Position numbers and translations under genes: made by a program. A stretch of 51,003 bases of DNA, from assembly GCA_002154345.1 (NCBI GenBank), contig MUNB01000054.1, positions 1 through 51,003 of the forward strand. Reading direction: 5' to 3'. Below, piece by piece: positions 9,219 through 18,001 of this stretch (positions are counted from its first letter, which is position 1; each line of letters starts with the position of its first letter). Origin of the DNA: Streptomyces griseus (lineage in GTDB: Bacteria; Actinomycetota; Actinomycetes; Streptomycetales; Streptomycetaceae). The notes beneath the pieces were generated by a model. That model had not been told where the DNA came from and ran no database searches. It worked only from the letters and a program-made list of their open reading frames with translations.

Positions 9219-10220
9219 TCAGGTCTGCCGCATCGGTGCGTAGGCCGCCCCCTCCAGGCCGAACGTCCAGGCCACCCCGTCCTTCGCGGTCCGGGTGGCG
9301 GGCGGCACGCGCAGCCAGTAGGTGCGGTGCGTGCCGTCCGGCTCGGGGGTGGAGTTGACCACCTCGACCATCACCACGTCCTCGTCGCCGTCGAGGGCGA
9401 TGCGCCAGAGGATGCCGGTCTCGTCGCGGTGGACGGGCTCGGCGCCCGACTCGGCGAGATAGCGGTCGTAGCCGTAGTACTCCAGCATCACGCGGCGCAG
9501 CTCCGCGTTCTCCTCGGCCCGGATCCGCTCGGGCGTGAGCGAGGACAGCTCGGCGAGGAACGCGGCCGGAACGGGCATGCCGCGCCAGGCGTGCAGGGCG
9601 AAGCCGTCCCCGTACGCCAGGGCCGGTCCCTCGCCGTGGTCGAGCCGGCCCGCCTCGTCGCGGTGGAGGACGTCGGGCCGCTCGCTGATGACCACGGCGT
9701 TCTCGTAGGGCCACCACCAGCCGGCGTTGCGGGCCACCTCCGCGAGACCCGTCAGCCGGTCGCCGCGCCCGTCGAAGGCGGCGAGCCACGCGGCGTCGTG
9801 CTGGCCGAGCACGGCGTCCAGGAGCACCAGTCGCACGGCGCCCTCGTCCGCCGGCCGGGGCGCCAGGTCGGCGACGACACCGGTCCGTATCCGGTCGGCG
9901 AGCGCGGCCGTGGTCTCCCACAGCTGGGCGCCGGTGGCGGACCAGAGCGCCGACCAGCCCGCCGGGCCGAGCTCGTCGTACATCCGGCGGCGTTCGGCGG
10001 CCCACGGGCGGGTGCGGACCTCCTCACGCACCGACCGTCCGGCGTCGGTCAGCTTCTCCACGATCCCGACGGCGGCCCGGGGCGACGCGGCCCAGATGAT
10101 CCGCTCCGGCTCGGCCAGGCCCGCGGTGCGGTAGGCGCGGCGCACACCGGCCTCGGCCGCCGCCCGGTCCGCCCGGCCGGTCGCCGCCGCCACGCTCCGC
10201 CAGGTAGTCACGTTCTGCAT
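9219..10220 (-). CDS. DUF6745-type protein, unknown function
   Basis: A 333-residue soluble protein. The N-terminal half is helical and Ala/Arg/Trp-rich. The C-terminal half carries PDVLHRDEAGRLDHGEGPAL, then YGDGFALHAWRGMPVP, and EYYGYDRYLAESGAEPVHRD, ending with STPEPDGTHRTYWLRVPP. I recognise this pattern as the DUF6745 family, for which no function is established. It reads left in the same direction as the small His-rich gene upstream (10363-10689) and is divergent from the STM4015-STM4011 operon. The family assignment is from memory. Confidence 0.75.
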   Translation of the reverse strand: MQNVTTWRSVAAATGRADRAAAEAGVRRAYRTAGLAEPERIIWAASPRAAVGIVEKLTDAGRSVREEVRTRPWAAERRRMYDELGPAGWSALWSATGAQLWETTAALADRIRTGVVADLAPRPADEGAVRLVLLDAVLGQHDAAWLAAFDGRGDRLTGLAEVARNAGWWWPYENAVVISERPDVLHRDEAGRLDHGEGPALAYGDGFALHAWRGMPVPAAFLAELSSLTPERIRAEENAELRRVMLEYYGYDRYLAESGAEPVHRDETGILWRIALDGDEDVVMVEVVNSTPEPDGTHRTYWLRVPPATRTAKDGVAWTFGLEGAAYAPMRQT

Positions 10221-10723: not shown

Positions 10724-10753
10724 GACCCTGCGAAAAACGCTACGGGCAGGGTC
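10724..10753. promoter_or_regulatory. Inverted repeat GACCCTGC-N14-GCAGGGTC
   Basis: Perfect 8-bp arms (10724-10731 and 10746-10753) flank 14 bases that include a TAGCGT hexamer on the minus strand. It lies just upstream of the leftward gene starting at 10689, so it could be a repressor operator or a 5'-UTR hairpin. Confidence 0.45.
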
Positions 10754-10807
10754 TGACAACGGGCCCCCGCCAACGCCCGGAACGGGTCCCGGCGGCGGCG
10801 TTGTCAG
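10753..10807. promoter_or_regulatory. Widely spaced inverted repeat CTGACAACG ... CGTTGTCAG between divergent operons
   Basis: Perfect 9-bp arms lie at 10753-10761 and 10799-10807. Read outward, each arm gives TTGTCA followed after exactly 11 bases by an AT-containing hexamer (TAGCGT leftward, TAAACC rightward). This symmetry between the DUF6745-side genes and the STM4015 operon suggests shared control. Confidence 0.5.
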
Positions 10808-10863
10808 TGCGGCTTGATAAACCTTGCGGACATCAGCCGTCCCAGGATCAGGAGCTCAGGGCC

Positions 10864-11826
10864 ATGTACGGTGCACAGCATCTGCACGAGTTCGGCGGCC
10901 TTCCGGCCGTCGACTTCCAGCGCACGACCGACGGGGGCTCCCGGCCCGCCGCGGATGCCGCGGCCTGGCGCCTCTACGTCGATCCGTACGGGGGCGACGA
11001 GGACCGGGACCGTCCCTGGGCGGAGGAGTTCGCCGACTTCCTGGAATCGGTCGACCCGGCCGGGGTGCGGGCCCTGATCATCGGTCAGTGGGGCGAGGCC
11101 TACGAGGAGAACTCCTCCGTGCCGATCGGTCTGCTGATCGCCGCCGCCGACCGGCTGACCTCGCTGGAGTCGGTGTTCATCGGGGATCTGGAGGCCGAGG
11201 AGGCCGAGATCACCTGGATCCAGCAGTCGGATGTGACGGCGCTGCTGGCAGCCTTCCCCGCGCTGACGGAGCTCGGGGTGCGCGGCGGCTCGGAGCTGCT
11301 GTTCCCGCCGACGAAGCACGAGCGGCTGCGGGCGCTGACGATCCAGGCGGGCGGGCTGCCGGTCGAGGTGGTGCGCGGTGTGCTGGACAGCGAACTGCCC
11401 GCGCTGGAGCGGCTGGACCTCTGGCTCGGGGTGTCCGCCTACGAGGGCGACACCAACGTCTCCGACCTCGCCCCGCTGCTCTCCGGCACCCGTTTCCCCC
11501 GGCTGAACCACCTGGGCCTGCGCAACAGCGAGATCCAGAACGAGATCGCCGCGGCCGTCGCCTCCGCTCCGGTCGTCGCCCAGCTGCGGGTGCTCGACCT
11601 CTCGAACGGCACGCTGGGCGACGAAGGCGCGGCCGCTCTGCTGGAAGGACAGCCGCTGACCCATCTGGAAGCCCTCGATCTCCACCACCACTTCCTCAGC
11701 GGGTCGATGGAGAAGCGGGTCCGTTCCGCTCTGGAGCCGCACGGGGTGCGCGTCGATCTCTCCGAGAAGTGCGAGCCCTGGGGCGACCGTGGCGTCGAGG
11801 GCCGCTACACCGCCGTCTCGGAGTAG
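10864..11826 (+). CDS. STM4015-family leucine-rich-repeat-like protein, copy 1
   Basis: A 320-residue protein starting MYGAQHLHEFGGLPAVDF. The middle and C-terminal parts carry spaced Leu motifs of LRR type: LTSLESVFIGDL, FPALTELGVRGG, LPALERLDLWLG, FPRLNHLGLRNSEIQ, VVAQLRVLDLSNGTLGDEG, LTHLEALDLHHHFLS. It ends RYTAVSE directly before the stop. LRR folds are usually interaction surfaces, and no catalytic residues are evident. It is the first gene of the operon, 12 bases before its paralogue. The family is named after Salmonella STM4015; function unknown. Confidence 0.88.
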   Translation: MYGAQHLHEFGGLPAVDFQRTTDGGSRPAADAAAWRLYVDPYGGDEDRDRPWAEEFADFLESVDPAGVRALIIGQWGEAYEENSSVPIGLLIAAADRLTSLESVFIGDLEAEEAEITWIQQSDVTALLAAFPALTELGVRGGSELLFPPTKHERLRALTIQAGGLPVEVVRGVLDSELPALERLDLWLGVSAYEGDTNVSDLAPLLSGTRFPRLNHLGLRNSEIQNEIAAAVASAPVVAQLRVLDLSNGTLGDEGAAALLEGQPLTHLEALDLHHHFLSGSMEKRVRSALEPHGVRVDLSEKCEPWGDRGVEGRYTAVSE

Positions 11827-11838
11827 GGGCAGGGAGTC

Positions 11839-12798
11839 ATGACGTACCTCGGTATTGAGCATCTGGAGCACTTCCACGGCCTGCCGGTCCACACTCCGGA
11901 TCCCTCGTCCGGCGCTCTGCCCGCCGCCGATTCGGTGGCCTGGCGGCTGGTGTGCGACTACGACGAGGACGCCGGCTTCGCCGCCCTCTGGGAGCAGTTC
12001 CTGGAGACGGTGGACACGACCCGGGTCCGAGCCCTCGTCATCGGCCCCTGGTGGAACGGCGAATACACGCCCTTCGATCCGGTGGTGGAGCTGATCGTCG
12101 CCCACGCCGAACGCTTCCCGGCGCTGCGCGGGCTCTTCCTCGCCGATGTGGTGGGCGAGGAGTGCGAGGTGTCCTGGCTGAAGATGTGCGACATCACTCC
12201 GGTGCTCGAAGCGCTGCCGTCGCTGGAGGAGTTCGGTGTGCGCGGCTGCGGCCAGGAGGGACTCGCGCTGCGGCCGCTGCGCCATACGGCGTTGAAGTCG
12301 CTGCGCTTCGAGTCCGGTGGTCTGCCCGGCGAGCTGGTGCGGGCGGTCGCCGCGAGCGAACTGCCCGCACTGGAGCGGCTGGACCTGTGGTTCGGCAGTA
12401 CGTGGTACGGCGGCGACGCGACGATCGACGATGTCCGGCCGGTCCTGGCGGGCGGCCTGTTCCCGCGGCTGCGCCACCTGGGGCTGCAGAACAGCGAGTT
12501 CCAGGACGAGATCGCCACGGCGGTGGGTTCCGCGCCCGTCGTCGCCCAGTTGGAGACCCTGGCGCTGTCGATGGGCACCCTGAGCGACACGGGCGGCGAG
12601 GCGCTGCTCAACGGGCAGCCCCTGAGCCACCTCTCCCTGCTCGACCTCCGCCATCACTACCTCACCGACCCGATGGTCGACCGCATCAGGACCGCGTGCA
12701 CACCCGCAGTCGTCGAGGCCGACGGGGCCGAGGACGACTACGCCGACCCGGACGACGAGGACGACGAACCGGAACGCTATGTCGCGGTCAGCGAGTAG
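11839..12798 (+). CDS. STM4015-family leucine-rich-repeat-like protein, copy 2
   Basis: A 319-residue tandem paralogue of the preceding gene with clear end-to-end similarity: WRLVCDYDEDAGF, RALVIGPWW, LPSLEEFGVRGCG, LPALERLDLWFGS, FPRLRHLGLQNSEFQDEIA, LSLLDLRHHYLTDPM. Before its end it has an acidic insert (EDDYADPDDEDDEPE) absent from copy 1, then RYVAVSE at the stop. The last 20 bases overlap the ATP-grasp gene. The two copies have diverged throughout but keep the same tail, so the duplication is old and both copies appear to be under selection. Confidence 0.88.
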   Translation: MTYLGIEHLEHFHGLPVHTPDPSSGALPAADSVAWRLVCDYDEDAGFAALWEQFLETVDTTRVRALVIGPWWNGEYTPFDPVVELIVAHAERFPALRGLFLADVVGEECEVSWLKMCDITPVLEALPSLEEFGVRGCGQEGLALRPLRHTALKSLRFESGGLPGELVRAVAASELPALERLDLWFGSTWYGGDATIDDVRPVLAGGLFPRLRHLGLQNSEFQDEIATAVGSAPVVAQLETLALSMGTLSDTGGEALLNGQPLSHLSLLDLRHHYLTDPMVDRIRTACTPAVVEADGAEDDYADPDDEDDEPERYVAVSE

Positions 12799-13936
12799 CC
12801 CCGGCGACGGCCCGCTGCCGCGCTTCGCGGTCGTCGGCAATCCGGACAACCGCCGGGTGGCCTTCTTCGAGGAGGCCGTGCGTACCGCCGGCCTCCCGGC
12901 GGCCCGGGTCGTGTCCTGGCTCCAGGTGCTGCGCGGCGAGGCGGTGTTCGCGCCCGGCGAGAGCGTACGGATCGATTCGCCCGGTGAGGACGCCGAGGTG
13001 GAGCGGCTGCTGCGCGGGGTTGACGACCCGACCCGGGTGGAGGGTTCGGCCCGGTGGTACGCACGGTTCACCGCCGCGGTGGAGGAGGTGGCGGGCGCGG
13101 CCACGGCCGCGGGCGCCGAGGTGCTGGGCTCCCCCGGTGACATCGCCGTGCTCTTCGACAAGCGGCTGTGCCACGGGCTGCTGGACCGGGCGGGGATCTC
13201 CGTGCCCGCCTCGCCGACGTCCGGTTCCGGGGCGGCGCCGGTGCGCGGCTGGTCCGACGTACGGGAGGCGCTGCGCGAGCACCGGATGCCCCGGGCGTTC
13301 GTGAAGCTCGCGCACGGCTCCTCGGCCTCCGGGGTGCTGGCGGTGGAGACGGCGGGCCCCGGCCGGGTCCGGGCCACCACCTCGGTGGAACGGGACGCGT
13401 CGGGGCGGCTGTTCAACTCGCTGCGGGTGCGGCGCTACACCTCGGAGCGGGAGGTCGGCGCGATCGTCGACGCGCTGGCCCCGGACGGGCTGCACATCGA
13501 GCGCTGGCTGCCGAAGGCGTCCCAGCGGGGGCGGGCCGCGGATCTGCGGATCGTGGTGACCGGCGGCCGGGCGACGCACGCCGTGGTGCGGACGAGCACG
13601 AGCCCCATGACCAATCTGCATCTCGGCGGCGCGCGCGGTGACCTGGGCGAGGTCCGGGCCGCCGTGGCGGCGGCGGGCGGCTCCTGGCGCGAGGCGCTGA
13701 CCCTGTGCGAGCGAGCAGCGGCCTGCTTCCCCGGGACGCTCTGCGTGGGCGTCGATCTGCTGCCCACGGCCGGCTGGCGGCGCTTCGCCGTCGGCGAGGT
13801 CAACGCCTTCGGCGATCTGCTGCCCGGACTGACCGGTCTGCCGGGCAGCGGCGCCGAGGGCCTGGACACCTATGCGGCGCAGGTCGCCGCCGTACTCGAC
13901 CGAGCAAGGAACCACCGTGCCGTCACCGCTTCCTGA
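12779..13936 (+). CDS. STM4014-family ATP-grasp protein
   Basis: A 385-residue protein. An N-terminal pre-ATP-grasp part (FAVVGNPDNRRVAFFEEA) precedes the ATP-grasp core: lid entry VLFDKRLCHGLLDRAGISVP near residues 122-141, the nucleotide-binding strand AFVKLAHGSSASGVLAV, DLRIVVTGGRATHAVVRTS, and the Mg-binding acidic strand FAVGEVNAFGDLLPGL near the C-terminus. ATP-grasp enzymes join a carboxylate to an amine or thiol through an acyl phosphate, and similar ones modify peptide or protein tails. The substrate here is unknown. It overlaps both neighbours by 20 bases, implying translational coupling. Confidence 0.87.
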   Translation: MSRSASSPGDGPLPRFAVVGNPDNRRVAFFEEAVRTAGLPAARVVSWLQVLRGEAVFAPGESVRIDSPGEDAEVERLLRGVDDPTRVEGSARWYARFTAAVEEVAGAATAAGAEVLGSPGDIAVLFDKRLCHGLLDRAGISVPASPTSGSGAAPVRGWSDVREALREHRMPRAFVKLAHGSSASGVLAVETAGPGRVRATTSVERDASGRLFNSLRVRRYTSEREVGAIVDALAPDGLHIERWLPKASQRGRAADLRIVVTGGRATHAVVRTSTSPMTNLHLGGARGDLGEVRAAVAAAGGSWREALTLCERAAACFPGTLCVGVDLLPTAGWRRFAVGEVNAFGDLLPGLTGLPGSGAEGLDTYAAQVAAVLDRARNHRAVTAS

Positions 13937-14858
13937 ACCCACCGCGCCCCACGAGCCCCACGAGTTCCACGGGCCCGGCGGCTCCGGGCGGCCCGACATG
14001 GCCGAGGTCGTGGGCAGCCACGATCTGCTGCTGGTCACCCTGGACACCCTGCGCCACGACGTGGCCGTCGAGCTGGCCGCCGCCGGGCGCATCCCCCACC
14101 TCGCCCGGCACCTGCCCGGGGGCGGCTGGGAGGAGCGGCACGCTCCGGGCAGCTTCACCTACGCCTCGCACCAGGCGATGTTCGCCGGGTTCCTGCCGAC
14201 GCCCGCCTCCCCCGGGCCGCATCCGCGGCTCTTCGCGGCGCGGTTCGCGGGCAGTGAGACGACGGCGGACGGCACATTCGTGTTCGACACGCCGGACCTG
14301 GTGTCGGGGCTGGCCGCCGAGGGCTACCGCACGGTGTGTATCGGCGGGGTCGGCTTCTTCAACCGTCAGGGGCCGCTCGGTTCGGTGCTGCCCGGCATGT
14401 TCCAGGAGAGCCACTGGGAGCCCGGCTTCGGCGTCGCCTCGCCCACCTCGTTCGAGGAGCAGGTGGCCAGGGCGGAGAAGGTCGTCGCGGCGCTCCCCCG
14501 GGACCAGCGGCTGTTCCTCTTCGTCAACGTGTCCGCCCTGCACCAGCCGAACTGGTTCCATCGGCCCGGGGCGACCCGCGAGGCGGGCGACTCCCGCGCC
14601 ACGCACGCGGCGGCCCTGGAGTACGTGGACCGGCACATCGGCCGGCTCTTCGCCGCGGCGAGCAGCCGCCGCCGTTGCTTCGCCATCGTCTGTTCCGACC
14701 ACGGCACGGCCTACGGCGACGACGGCTACACCGGTCACCGGCTCGGCCACCCGGCCGTCTGGACCGTCCCGTACGCCCACTTCTTCCTCGAACCACCCGC
14801 ATCCGAACCACCCGCGTGCGAGACATCCGCATCGCCAGAACCGGGGGCCGCCCGATGA
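13917..14858 (+). CDS. STM4013/SEN3800-family sulfatase-like hydrolase
   Basis: A 313-residue alkaline-phosphatase-superfamily protein. The metal strand LLLVTLDTLRHDV is near residue 45. A candidate nucleophile lies in GSFTYASHQAMFAGFLP, and later metal ligands in CSDHGTAYGDDGYTGHRLGH. There is no sulfatase C-x-P-x-R signature, so a phospho- or other esterase role, or a transferase, is as likely as a sulfatase. The start is GTG with AAGGA 6 bases upstream and overlaps the ATP-grasp gene by 20 bases. The C-terminus is a low-complexity Ser/Pro/Glu tail. Stop and next start overlap as ATGA. Confidence 0.87.
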   Translation: MPSPLPEPTAPHEPHEFHGPGGSGRPDMAEVVGSHDLLLVTLDTLRHDVAVELAAAGRIPHLARHLPGGGWEERHAPGSFTYASHQAMFAGFLPTPASPGPHPRLFAARFAGSETTADGTFVFDTPDLVSGLAAEGYRTVCIGGVGFFNRQGPLGSVLPGMFQESHWEPGFGVASPTSFEEQVARAEKVVAALPRDQRLFLFVNVSALHQPNWFHRPGATREAGDSRATHAAALEYVDRHIGRLFAAASSRRRCFAIVCSDHGTAYGDDGYTGHRLGHPAVWTVPYAHFFLEPPASEPPACETSASPEPGAAR

Positions 14859-16237
14859 CGCTCACCACCCGTACTCCCGCGCCGCCCGCCGTCCGGCCGT
14901 ACGAGAGCTACGTCTACGCCTATCCGCACAAGACGGCCTACCGGCCGCTCGCGGACCGCCCGTCGCTGCGGTCGCTGTGGGCGGCGGAGCCCAAGGACGC
15001 GCTCTCCCTCTATCTCCACATACCGTTCTGCGAGGTCCGCTGCGGCTTCTGCAACCTCTTCACCCGGATCGGCGCGCCCGAGGAGCTGACGACGCGCTAT
15101 CTGGACGCGCTGGAGCGGCAGGCCGTGGCCGTACGGGAGGCCCTGGGCGACGAGGAGCCGGTGCGGTTCGCGGCGGCGGCGTTCGGCGGCGGCACGCCGA
15201 CGTTCCTGACCGCCGGCGAGCTCGAGCGGCTCTGCGACATCACGGAGAAGCGGATGGGCGCCGACCTGGGCGCGGTCCCGCTCTCCGTGGAGACCTCGCC
15301 CGCCACCGCCACCGCCGACCGGCTGGCGGTGCTGGCCGACCGGGGCACGACCAGGGTCAGCATCGGCGTGCAGAGCTTCGTGGACGAGGAGGCGCGGGCC
15401 GCGGTCCGCCCGCAGCGCCGGGCCGATGTGGAGGCGGCGCTCGGCCGGATCCGCGAGGCCCGGATCCCGGTGCTGAACATCGACCTGATCTACGGCATCG
15501 ACGGGCAGACCGAGCGCAGCTGGCTCGCCTCGCTGGACGCGGCGCTGGCCTGGCGGCCGGAGGAGCTGTATCTGTATCCGTTGTACGTCCGCCCGCTCAC
15601 CGGTCTGCACCGCCTGGGCGCCGCGGCCGACGCCGAGGCGCGGGCCCTGGAGGACGCCGCCTGGGACGAGCAGCGGCTGCGGCTGTACGCGGTGGGGCGG
15701 GACCATCTGCTGGCGCACGGCTACGAGCAGGTGTCGATGCGGATGTTCCGGCGGACCGACGCCCCTCGGGAGCAGGAGGGTCCCGAGGACTACGCCTGCC
15801 AGACCGACGGCATGATCGGCCTGGGCTGCGGGGCCCGTTCGTACACGGCGGCCCTGCACTACTCCTTCGACTACGCGGTGGACATGCGGGAGATCCGGTC
15901 GATCATCGACCGTTTCACCGCCACCGAGGACTTCTCCCGGGCCGAGGTCGGCCGGTATGTCGATGTGGCCGAGGCGCGCAGGCGGCATCTGCTGCAGTCG
16001 CTGCTCCAGGCGGCGGGGCTGCCGGTGGTGGACTACCGGGCGCGGTTCGGTACGGATCCGGGCGCGGACTTCCCGGCCGAGCTGGCGGAGTTCGCGGCCC
16101 GGGGCTGGCTGGACTCCTCGGCCCCGGAGGGGCTGCTGCGGTTGTCCCCGGCGGGTCTGGCCCACTCCGACGCGCTGGGTCCGGCGCTGTTCTCGCCCGG
16201 GGTGCGGGCGGCGATGGCCGCGTACGAGCGGAAGTGA
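14855..16237 (+). CDS. STM4012-family radical SAM protein (HemW-like)
   Basis: A 460-residue radical SAM enzyme. HIPFCEVRCGFCNLF supplies the [4Fe-4S] cluster cysteines (Cys59, Cys63, Cys66) and FGGGTPTFL the SAM-binding Gly motif. SIGVQSFVDEEARAAVRPQR and NIDLIYGIDGQTERSW match the coproporphyrinogen III oxidase-like/HemW branch, and the C-terminus has a HemW-type domain (MIGLGCGARSYT). HemW-like proteins bind heme or run methyltransfer and other radical chemistry; this clade is uncharacterised. It starts in the ATGA overlap with the hydrolase gene. Confidence 0.9.
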   Translation: MTLTTRTPAPPAVRPYESYVYAYPHKTAYRPLADRPSLRSLWAAEPKDALSLYLHIPFCEVRCGFCNLFTRIGAPEELTTRYLDALERQAVAVREALGDEEPVRFAAAAFGGGTPTFLTAGELERLCDITEKRMGADLGAVPLSVETSPATATADRLAVLADRGTTRVSIGVQSFVDEEARAAVRPQRRADVEAALGRIREARIPVLNIDLIYGIDGQTERSWLASLDAALAWRPEELYLYPLYVRPLTGLHRLGAAADAEARALEDAAWDEQRLRLYAVGRDHLLAHGYEQVSMRMFRRTDAPREQEGPEDYACQTDGMIGLGCGARSYTAALHYSFDYAVDMREIRSIIDRFTATEDFSRAEVGRYVDVAEARRRHLLQSLLQAAGLPVVDYRARFGTDPGADFPAELAEFAARGWLDSSAPEGLLRLSPAGLAHSDALGPALFSPGVRAAMAAYERK

Positions 16238-16244
16238 GCCGGAC

Positions 16245-17162
16245 ATGGACCTGACGATTCTCTACCGGGGCCCGCTCGCCTCCTGCGACTACGACTGTCC
16301 GTACTGCCCGTTCGCCAAGCGGCGGGACAGTCGCGCGCAGCTCACGGCGGACCGGGAGGCGCTGGAGCGGTTCACCTGCTGGGCGGCGGCACAGACGGGC
16401 GACCGGCTGTCGGTGCTGTTCACTCCGTGGGGCGAGGGCCTGGTGCGCTCCTGGTACCGGCGGGCGCTGACCGAGCTGTCGCGGCTGCCGCACATCGGCC
16501 GGGTCGCGATCCAGACGAATCTGAGCGGCCGCACCGACTGGCTGGCGGACGCCGATCCGGAGCGGATCGCGCTCTGGTGCACGTACCACCCGGGGCAGAC
16601 CCCGTACGACCGGTTTCTGGGCAAATGCCGGGAACTGTCGGCGAAGGGGATCCGCTACAGCGTGGGCGTGGTGGGGTTCGACGAGCACCTGGAGGAGGCG
16701 CGGCGGCTGCGGGCGGCGCTGCCCGGGGAGGTCTACCTCTGGGTGAACGCCGCCGAGGGCCACACGTACACCGACGCGGAGGCGGCGCGGTGGACGGAGC
16801 TGGATCCGCTGTTCCCCTACAGCCGTGATCCGCACCGCTCGGCGGGGCTGCCCTGCCGGACGGGCGAGTCGGTGATCTCGGTGGACGGCGACGGCACGGT
16901 GCGGCGCTGTCACTTCGTCAAGGCGGAGCTGGGCAATCTCTACGACGGCAGCTACCGCCGGGCGCTCGGCCCGCGGGCCTGTCCGCTCGCCGTGTGCGAC
17001 TGCCACATCGGCTATGTGCATCTGGAGTCGCTGCCGCTGTACGACGTCTTCGCGGGCGGCGTCCTGGAGCGGATACCGGCGGAGCGCCCGCCGGGCACGC
17101 CGCCGGACGGGCTCGTGGTGCCGAACCCGTCCCGGCGCGCGTTGCCCCTGCTGGAGCCCTGA
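16245..17162 (+). CDS. STM4011-family radical SAM protein
   Basis: A 305-residue radical SAM enzyme with its cluster motif right at the N-terminus, SCDYDCPYCPFAK (Cys14, Cys18, Cys21). The partial barrel is followed by a SPASM-like Cys-rich tail: LPCRTGESVISVDGDG, RRCHFVKAELGNLYDG, CPLAVCDCHIGYVHL. SPASM-type enzymes commonly act on peptides or proteins and carry auxiliary Fe-S clusters. It is the last gene of the operon, 7 bases after STM4012 with a GGAAGTGA ribosome site, and ends 11 bases from the convergent SGNH hydrolase gene. Confidence 0.9.
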   Translation: MDLTILYRGPLASCDYDCPYCPFAKRRDSRAQLTADREALERFTCWAAAQTGDRLSVLFTPWGEGLVRSWYRRALTELSRLPHIGRVAIQTNLSGRTDWLADADPERIALWCTYHPGQTPYDRFLGKCRELSAKGIRYSVGVVGFDEHLEEARRLRAALPGEVYLWVNAAEGHTYTDAEAARWTELDPLFPYSRDPHRSAGLPCRTGESVISVDGDGTVRRCHFVKAELGNLYDGSYRRALGPRACPLAVCDCHIGYVHLESLPLYDVFAGGVLERIPAERPPGTPPDGLVVPNPSRRALPLLEP

Positions 17163-17173
17163 ACGCCCGGCTG

Positions 17174-18001
17174 CTACAGCGGCAGCAGGTCGGGACGCTT
17201 CGCCTCGACGTGGTCGCCGGAGGACTCGCCGCGCAGCCGTCGCCCGATCCACGGCACCAGGTATTCGCGGGCCCACTGGATGTTGTCGCGCCGCTCGTCG
17301 AAGGGGCTGCGCTGGGCCTGCGGCGGCCAGGGCTGGTCGGGGTCGGCGGGCACGTCGTGGCCGAGGACCTGGGCGGCGCGCAGGGCGACGCGGGTGTGGC
17401 CCTCGGGCGAGAGGTGCAGCCGGTCGGCGTCCCACGCGCGCCGGTCCTGGACCGAGCGCAGCGACCACAGGTCCAGCACGGGGCACTGGTAGCGGTCGGC
17501 GATGGCCCGCAGATGGACGTTGTACGTGGCGATCTTGCCGCGCATGTGGCGCAGCACCGGAACGCCCCGGGTGTCGAAGCCGGTGGTGACCATGACCGTG
17601 CCGACGGCGTTGCTCAGGTCGGCGACCGCACGCTCGAAGCGCTCGGCGAGGTCGTCGGGGTCGGTGCCGGGCCGGATGATGTCGTTGCCGCCCGCACAGA
17701 AGCTGACCAGGTCGGGGGCCAGTTCCTTGGCACGGGGGATCTGCTCCTCGACGATCTGGTCGAGGAGACGTCCTCGTACGGCGAGATTGGCGTAGCGGAA
17801 GTCCCCGTGCGGGGAGTCCTCGGGGCCGGCCTCCGTGTCGGGGGCCGGGAGCCGGTCGGCGAGGAGCACCGCGAAGCGGTCCGCCCAGCCGACATAGGTC
17901 CCGTCGGGGCCGGGGTCGCCGACGCCCTCGGTGAAACTGTCGCCAATCGCCGCGTACGACCCGATGATGTGCTGCTGGTTGTTTCTCGAATCGTCTGCCA
18001 C
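17174..18001 (-). CDS. SGNH/GDSL-family hydrolase
   Basis: A 275-residue esterase/lipase-like enzyme. Block I is AAIGDSFTEGVGD (nucleophile Ser22), the block II-like Gly is in YANLAVRG, block III is CAGGNDII, and the catalytic Asp/His pair is in DADRLHLSPEGH. No signal peptide is visible, so it is probably cytoplasmic. The start is GTG with AGGA 9 bases upstream. It is preceded by a terminator for the M23 gene and by a GGGTGGT-N7-ACCACCC inverted repeat, and so is probably transcribed on its own. Confidence 0.9.
   Translation of the reverse strand: MADDSRNNQQHIIGSYAAIGDSFTEGVGDPGPDGTYVGWADRFAVLLADRLPAPDTEAGPEDSPHGDFRYANLAVRGRLLDQIVEEQIPRAKELAPDLVSFCAGGNDIIRPGTDPDDLAERFERAVADLSNAVGTVMVTTGFDTRGVPVLRHMRGKIATYNVHLRAIADRYQCPVLDLWSLRSVQDRRAWDADRLHLSPEGHTRVALRAAQVLGHDVPADPDQPWPPQAQRSPFDERRDNIQWAREYLVPWIGRRLRGESSGDHVEAKRPDLLPL

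Follow-up and report, generated by a model that had tools for sequence, protein, structure and literature searches.

The STM4011-STM4015 operon of Streptomyces griseus as a candidate system for chemistry on the C-terminal glutamate of a leucine-rich repeat protein

According to passages in PMC10433800, the ligase LysX joins an amine to the gamma-carboxyl of the C-terminal glutamate (Glu) of LysW, and RimK is described in parts of PMC10092738 as adding Glu to the C-terminus of S6. Both are among the nearest solved folds of STM4014, the predicted ATP-grasp ligase encoded in the six-gene STM4011-STM4015 operon of Streptomyces griseus, which is the subject of this study. The operon lies at 10864-17162 of the window, that is, the whole stretch of 51,003 nucleotides analysed here (contig MUNB01000054.1, assembly GCA_002154345.1), and it also encodes two leucine-rich repeat (LRR) proteins of the STM4015 family, an alkaline-phosphatase-superfamily enzyme (STM4013) and two radical S-adenosylmethionine (SAM) enzymes (STM4012 and STM4011). 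On balance, and by a modest measure, it is judged probable that the STM4015 tail is a carrier or substrate whose C-terminal Glu is loaded by STM4014, with lower confidence for each later step.

In comparison with described systems, the amino-group carrier systems (LysW/ArgW with LysX/ArgX) are alike in ligase fold and in the conserved C-terminal Glu of the carrier, which an acidic stretch precedes. LysW and ArgW, however, are small zinc-Cys proteins with EDWGE (as given in part of PMC10433800), whereas STM4015 is an LRR protein with the consensus RYVAVSE, and amino-group carrier operons contain LysZ/LysY/LysJ/LysK where radical SAM and phosphodiesterase-like enzymes are found here. The module would work like an amino-group carrier system without being a member, since its carrier does not resemble LysW and its remaining enzymes are different ones. 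Amino-group carrier proteins of Streptomyces secondary metabolism appear among the reference titles of PMC9303977. As for RimK and S6, the likeness is an ATP-grasp ligase in the same class of folds that lengthens the C-terminus of a protein (PMC10092738, in part), but the putative acceptor here is an LRR protein and radical SAM enzymes share the operon. The Pearlin pathways of 3-thiaglutamate and 3-thiahomoleucine likewise modify an amino acid that has been added to the C-terminus of a carrier, with a radical SAM reaction among the steps (passages of PMC9303977); they use a peptide aminoacyl-tRNA ligase (PEARL), a protease and a peptide carrier, and neither enzyme is among the matches of the six proteins.

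Terminal glutamate of STM4015 and fold of STM4014

All six proteins are co-located and score above the curated NCBIfam cut-offs for their families. The operon proposed in the first-pass annotation is thus real, every gene lying where it had been placed:

10864..11826, plus strand: STM4015-family LRR protein 1 (LRR1); NF038076, 389.8 bits (cut-off 275); tail RYTAVSE
11803..11823, plus strand: final seven codons of LRR1, with the C-terminal Glu as proposed acceptor
11839..12798, plus strand: STM4015-family LRR protein 2 (LRR2); NF038076, 377.2 bits (cut-off 275); tail RYVAVSE
12775..12795, plus strand: final seven codons of LRR2, with the C-terminal Glu as proposed acceptor
12779..13936, plus strand: predicted STM4014-family ATP-grasp ligase; NF038074, 457.8 bits (cut-off 175)
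13917..14858, plus strand: STM4013-family alkaline-phosphatase-superfamily enzyme with Thr at the nucleophile position; NF038075, 426.7 bits (cut-off 250)
14855..16237, plus strand: STM4012-family HemN/HemW-like radical SAM enzyme; NF006067, 641.5 bits (cut-off 380)
16245..17162, plus strand: STM4011-family radical SAM enzyme with five further conserved Cys; NF038073, 417.3 bits (cut-off 200)

Among the distinct STM4015 sequences with a stop codon (92 loci), 134 of 135 end in Glu after a variable linker, and the commonest letters of the last seven residues are R-Y-V-A-V-S-E. The sole exception is an out-of-frame piece in locus L091, whose in-frame piece has the terminal Glu; the count left out L001-L007 (duplicates), L141 and loci fetched later. 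Across 55 divergent sequences (six phyla) there are 12 invariant columns, namely the terminal Glu and eleven Leu, Gly or Pro positions within the LRR body, and the mean gap-weighted information equals 2.99 bits for the tail, 2.65 for the body and 1.64 for the linker, which is the least conserved part. The last residue aside, most tail positions differ among Salmonella, E. coli and Bacteroidota, with Glu kept. All copies in the 36 loci with two tandem copies are Glu-ended, sharing a mean of 5.3 of the last 7 residues and 9% of the preceding 13. The DNA pattern for tail plus stop occurs at two places in the 7.8 Mb genome, both of them the LRR genes (reversed control 0). Overlapping reading frames are ruled out as the cause of this conservation, because the two LRR genes are 12 bases apart, and the Glu persists in Salmonella, E. 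coli, Paenibacillus and one Deinococcus, where 12-59 bases separate STM4015 from the following gene.

No STM4014 match was obtained in 3 of the 134 STM4015-bearing Streptomyces genomes, and their STM4015 proteins end in PLTY, GLP and SIAV (Glu in 0/3). The fixed C-terminal tail read by the first-pass annotation is therefore borne out, Glu being last in all counted operon-linked copies and absent in these three genomes. Full conservation is claimed only for operon-linked copies, since wider sampling gave extra paralogues without Glu. The extra Streptomyces paralogues L176, L178, L179 and L184 have similar ends with no terminal Glu and form a natural control set.

Regarding structure, the LRR2 model has a predicted local distance difference test (pLDDT) value of 88 overall, with a confident body and values of ~50-60 across the last 30 residues. 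Its predicted fold is LRR, with Foldseek rank 1 for PDB 2ra8, a solved STM4015 from Bacteroides fragilis that is assigned to the family at E 3.9e-104. An N-terminal WGR domain is present in 2/2 Bacteroidota STM4015 proteins scanned. A Calothrix plasmid (L124, 2014-3288) carries a lone STM4015-like protein that ends in RYCSVAE, the other families being unmatched in the fetched stretch. In genome G349 (L192), the open reading frame beside STM4014 aligns only with the initial third and the final 34 profile positions of STM4015, so that the LRR body is mostly gone and a CTAVAE end is kept; this genome has its full STM4015 2.2 Mb away, adjoining STM4013 and STM4012.

The STM4014 family has 28 invariant positions across seven distant members, some of which are presumably typical ATP-grasp residues. 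The STM4014 model (pLDDT 92) has as nearest PDB folds LysX, ArgX with LysW, DcsG, PsnB and RimK (E 2.4e-13 to ~1e-11, identity 14-20%), and Foldseek ranks 1-3 all belong to LysX and ArgX (E 2.4e-13 to 6.8e-13), a likeness at fold level. Sequence profiles agree weakly, namely biotin carboxylase (1.2e-4), RimK (1.4e-4) and LysX (1.4e-3), and a Pfam scan of STM4014 gave no match. According to the model, STM4014 appears to have a fold of the kind that acts on protein C-termini, LysX, ArgX and RimK using a C-terminal Glu or the C-terminus.

Co-occurrence of the families, which was offered earlier as a check, holds. The STM4011-STM4015 set recurs in five phyla, with complete five-family loci in Streptomyces, Nonomuraea, Embleya, Methylobacterium, three Deinococcus, Paenibacillus, Salmonella and E. 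coli LF82, as well as on a Bacteroidota-like contig of a viral collection (L141). A Bacteroides finegoldii plasmid has STM4015, STM4014 and STM4011, with merely short pieces of STM4013 and STM4012 between them, and the STM4015-STM4013 part is found in 154/5426 E. coli genomes. Among the best 80 of 574 STM4013 relatives from a genome-contig scan (78 titled Streptomyces), 78 loci have all five families, and the other two are cut by contig ends; the other phyla were sampled through plasmid records, a single E. coli chromosome and a single contig of the viral collection. A phylum-wide STM4013 search gave mostly weak superfamily matches, with scores over the cut-off in 5/198 genomes.

For 101 Streptomyces genomes, STM4015 is found in 46, STM4014 in 43 and STM4011 in 44, and 43/43 genomes with STM4014 have both other families; G213 has only STM4011, and in G223, G264 and G288 only STM4015 is found. 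In the sample of 295 Streptomyces genomes the values are 131 for STM4014 and 134 for STM4015, with 131/131 STM4014 genomes shared. These counts include G263, though each of its three inspected genes is broken or incomplete. The single STM4014 gene of a genome is accompanied by as many as four STM4015 copies. When 72,556 plasmids were searched with three baits, STM4011 was found in 13 records, all of them (13/13) also among the 15 STM4015 and 23 STM4013 records; the remaining 10 STM4013 records include seven Agrobacterium matches at ~25% identity. Because the set recurs in distant phyla and STM4015, STM4014 and STM4011 co-occur genome-wide, it is not due to chance.

A few further loci were seen in this survey. 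In E. coli LF82 (L125) the operon and a HAD gene sit between a yih-like region and typA/glnA. The Agrobacterium plasmid pTi-SAKURA (L040, 8118-8864) carries a 25% STM4013-like 'sulfatase-like' gene, the other four families being unmatched in the fetched stretch. Viral-collection contigs L135-L140 contain distant STM4013 relatives (27-37%), and in L140 glycosyltransferase- and methyltransferase-like genes adjoin by eye.

Partner enzymes and flanking genes

The first-pass annotation gave gaps or overlaps of at most 12 bases. The gaps of 12 and 7 bases agree with this, but two overlaps are larger, 12779-12798 and 13917-13936 (~20 bases each, the latter if the GTG start of STM4013 is correct), and the third is 4 bases. 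According to Pfam, the LRR match of both LRR proteins is sub-threshold, STM4013 matches Sulfatase, and STM4012 matches Radical_SAM, which is sub-threshold for STM4011. As the annotation had stated, the families bear locus-derived names only: STM4011-STM4015 are the NCBIfam names, and 2ra8 is titled uncharacterized protein. In the open papers searched, STM4013 and STM4015 appear as single table entries, searches for the family phrases, SEN3800 and DUF6745 returned nothing, and no experimental test of the function of the gene set was found.

STM4013 has Asp43, Thr81, His209, Asp261, His262 and His278 invariant in 7/7 aligned members. Its best solved relatives are nucleotide pyrophosphatase/phosphodiesterases (E ~4e-8), with sulfatases next, and it aligns to 7n1s and 2gsn across the Thr motif and the DH motif; by the pattern of those enzymes, Thr is presumably the nucleophile and the Asp and His residues metal ligands. 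The label 'sulfatase-like' is thus right at superfamily depth only, the nucleophile position being Thr in 7/7 members. With Thr in place of Cys or Ser, STM4013 is predicted to be phosphodiesterase-like and not a Type I sulfatase, and the suggested role of a sulfatase-like hydrolase in trimming a product gives way to this assignment. A divergent STM4013 homologue (46-49%) occurs in another small cluster with a NUDIX-type gene (L037, 7753-9916; L041, 5828-9247). The L041 cluster has a MoaA-like radical SAM protein and a thymidylate-kinase-like protein (NUDIX by eye), and the L037 cluster has a lasso-B2-like protein. These NUDIX-linked clusters hint at STM4013 action on nucleotide-like phosphoesters.

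As for the radical SAM enzymes, STM4012 has CxxxCxxC in 6/6 members, with PDB matches to HemN (1olt, E 2.7e-53) and the methyltransferase NocN (8.1e-34), and STM4011 has CxxxCxxC plus five further Cys in 7/7. The earlier 'SPASM-like' label of STM4011 finds weak matches only, a C-terminus resembling PDB SkfB (E 1.2e-4) and PF13186 in one relative (E 0.0032, under the cut-off). Anti-phage defence was set aside, as a PADLOC scan of eight proteins matched no defence model except STM4012 weakly (E 1.2e-5 over 86 residues).

The 5' end of the module had been drawn short, since two minus-strand genes upstream of the operon belong with it:

9219..10220, minus strand: DUF6745 protein (PF20530), divergent partner gene; Pfam 386.9 bits
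10363..10689, minus strand: small protein of ~108 aa with motifs GHxH and H(E/D)EH, from homologue alignment

The start of the small protein was placed at the GTG before YRQGD (the longest open reading frame extends to 10773), and no Pfam family matched it. Its aligned homologues adjoin DUF6745 in Streptomyces, Methylobacterium and Deinococcus. Both genes are found in 70/78 full loci, and three of the eight misses lie at contig ends. The pair is divergent upstream in Streptomyces, co-directional upstream in Methylobacterium and convergent downstream in Deinococcus, and this varied placement favours a functional tie over inherited order. No such pair turned up in the loci fetched from Paenibacillus, Salmonella, E. 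coli, Bacteroides and Embleya. A HAD-type hydrolase gene lies 3' of STM4011 in Salmonella and E. coli; in the Bacteroidota contig L141 HAD is fused to STM4011, and a similar C-terminal extension is present on B. finegoldii STM4011. The flanking DUF6745 pair, the DNA-damage-type promoter described below and the HAD phosphatase that accompanies the operon in Salmonella, E. coli and Bacteroidota had all been overlooked in the first reading of the window. Just downstream of the operon, an open reading frame at 17174-18001 (minus strand) resembles an SGNH/GDSL esterase by eye and lies outside the module as seen.

Divergent promoter

Two motifs are located between the small gene and the operon:

10737..10759, minus strand: PafBC-type (RecA-NDp) motif TTGTCAG-N10-TANNNT toward the small protein and DUF6745, one of 31 genome sites
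10801..10823, plus strand: motif variant with final base C, not T, toward the STM4015 operon, kept in 63/69 loci with T or C

The PafBC motif of mycobacteria is TGTC(A/G)G-N10-TA-N3-T (given in part of PMC8151990), and an initial search reported in passages of PMC9380542 had the M. smegmatis motif as apparently not conserved in S. venezuelae. The promoter set comprises 69 loci with both genes, namely the window and 68 fetched loci. Toward the small gene and DUF6745, TGTC(A/G)(G/C)-N10-TA-N3-T is present in 67/69 intergenic regions, and the stricter TTGTC(A/G)G with a spacer of 9-11 and T ending in 62/69 (shuffles mean 0.01/69). Toward the operon, TGTC(A/G)(G/C)-N10-TA-N3-(T/C) is present in 63/69. 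The motif is like that of the PafBC/RecA-NDp regulon of actinobacteria, and PafBC control of the STM4011-STM4015 locus is putative.

Genome-wide, TTGTCRG-N10-TANNNT has 31 sites in S. griseus (reversed control 0). Downstream of 30 of the sites 20 open reading frames chosen by the authors were scanned, ten of them picked since their first residues looked repair-like; 17/20 have a family and three have none. Repair-type families among them are RecA, UvrB, RuvC, PcrA, a UvrD-like helicase, a DinG/YoaA-like helicase, uracil-DNA glycosylase (ung), LigA and an HhH-GPD glycosylase. According to these sites in the S. griseus genome, a RecA-independent damage regulon is suggested to exist in Streptomyces. 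At least nine of the 31 exact sites (loci L142-L171) stand upstream of DNA-repair genes.

Other phyla were scanned as well. In three Deinococcus species an RDRM (radiation/desiccation response motif)-like palindrome of 17 bp, near TTATG-N7-CATAA, lies 26-58 bases upstream of the small gene, with 0, 1 and 3 mismatches to TTATGTNNNNNACATAA at chance expectations per locus of 0.04, 0.04 and 0.56, the third being weak. Similar RDRM sites are listed in Table 4 of PMC1978522. The DUF6745/small-protein pair is a tentative candidate for the Deinococcus RDRM/DdrO regulon. The motif scan found no such palindrome upstream of the Deinococcus operon itself. Damage boxes upstream of the operon outside actinobacteria were rejected, the regular expressions having matched only in Bacteroidota L039 and L141 (hairpin and upstream coding sequence, by eye), Calothrix L124 and an L130 stretch beyond the operon. 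In Paenibacillus, CGAACATTGGTATG is LexA-box-like by eye.

Candidate mechanism and alternatives

The proposal of the first-pass annotation that the LRR protein is the substrate or scaffold of a tail-maturation pathway is kept as the leading reading, because of the tail Glu pattern, the C-terminus-acting ligase fold and the co-occurrence. STM4014 would join an amine-bearing molecule, probably an amino acid, to a carboxylate of the STM4015 terminal Glu, a link that we infer to be covalent. STM4012 and STM4011 would then rebuild the loaded group, and STM4013, plus the HAD phosphatase where present, would act on a phosphoester or phosphodiester step. The product would either remain on STM4015 or leave via an enzyme encoded elsewhere. 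An unrelated repeat protein that presents its tail on a flexible linker would follow the logic of LysX and LysW. In Streptomyces a PafBC-type DNA-damage promoter may turn on the operon and the divergent DUF6745/small-protein pair together. The extended version is a DNA-damage-induced pathway in which LRR carriers hold an amino-acid-derived group on Glu, the radical SAM pair makes a new cofactor, protectant or signal, and the DUF6745 pair is its user or processor; it is put forward tentatively and, taken as a whole, is rather doubtful.

Several observations weigh against this proposal. The fold list of STM4014 also has an inositol-phosphate kinase (rank 19) and D-Ala-D-Ala ligase (rank 27). Among nine extra STM4015 copies outside the tandem array in STM4014-bearing genomes (101-genome sample), three are without Glu and six have it, so that for extra copies alone (6/9 vs 0/3) the difference is not significant (p = 0.18); with operon copies added, the sequences being related, p equals 4e-5. 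Three further extra copies checked from the 295-genome sample are all Glu-ended (3/3), two of them adjoining STM4013. Since several Glu-less copies have similar ends, the Glu losses in genomes without STM4014 may comprise perhaps only two independent events. There is no peptidase or other release enzyme in the operon, and the terminal Glu could be a docking or recognition feature. On the promoter side, the operon-side motif is off the PafBC consensus at the last base (strict T form 0/69). As its C-ending form is at background in the S. griseus genome (5 sites vs 5 in control), it was rejected as a genome-wide signal, and the evidence for it is conservation and position, not rarity. FolC, PhoH, DapF, HxlR and others not tied to repair are also downstream of PafBC-type sites, and a motif scan of the 350 bases upstream of the operon gave no DNA-damage box in Salmonella, E. 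coli, Paenibacillus, Methylobacterium and three Deinococcus.

The tail and ligase evidence is common to loading of a carrier and to a permanent, RimK-like modification of the tail, in which STM4014 would add one or more amino acids, the radical SAM enzymes would finish the work, LRR binding would be altered and nothing would be released. Such a modification agrees with the lack of a peptidase among the six genes, with LRR bodies as binding modules (and the WGR domain in two Bacteroidota copies) and with the several LRR copies that accompany one ligase. A pair of radical SAM enzymes plus a phosphodiesterase-like enzyme, however, exceeds the needs of tagging, and the HAD phosphatase partners suggest small-molecule chemistry, and this explanation is regarded as unlikely. 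Next in order, and also improbable, comes the possibility that the tail is a docking peptide only, with STM4015 as an assembly scaffold, Glu filling an enzyme pocket and the enzymes working on a small molecule in free form. Recognition can be served by a free C-terminus whose last residue is fixed, and the divergence of the Salmonella, E. coli and Bacteroidota tails at most positions save Glu is compatible with this, but LysX, ArgX and RimK, among the nearest folds, take a protein C-terminal Glu or C-terminus as substrate.

The term 'RiPP-like' in the first-pass annotation, taken strictly, would make the LRR protein the giant precursor of a ribosomally synthesised and post-translationally modified peptide (RiPP), with the modified tail peptide cut off. 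Two radical SAM enzymes, the SkfB-like C-terminus of STM4011 and an ATP-grasp enzyme near the graspetide ligase PsnB fit this, but a small precursor peptide, peptidase, transporter and RiPP recognition domain are absent from the matches of the six proteins (the search did not extend to peptides under 100 aa in the operon region), and the tail, about seven residues long, has no invariant position but its last Glu; the strict term is dropped and a strict RiPP is held to be very improbable. Close to negligible is a sulfatase with its own radical SAM maturase, as in the anaerobic formylglycine system, which would account for the Pfam Sulfatase match of STM4013 and for its sharing an operon with a SPASM-like radical SAM enzyme. 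A formylglycine maturase oxidises Cys or Ser, and the combination was set aside because the maturase-target position is the Thr found in every STM4013 aligned, with nucleotide pyrophosphatases as the best solved relatives.

Loading of the STM4015 tail by STM4014 is a sharp prediction that can be tested by intact-protein mass spectrometry at low cost. The promoter motifs would link the Streptomyces locus to the DNA-damage response. If the proposal is true, five families named by locus number, whose range extends from Streptomyces to Salmonella, E. coli, Deinococcus and Bacteroidota, would gain a testable shared function, namely covalent chemistry at the final residue of a repeat protein, and carrier-tethered biosynthesis would have arisen on a carrier unrelated to LysW or to carrier peptides.

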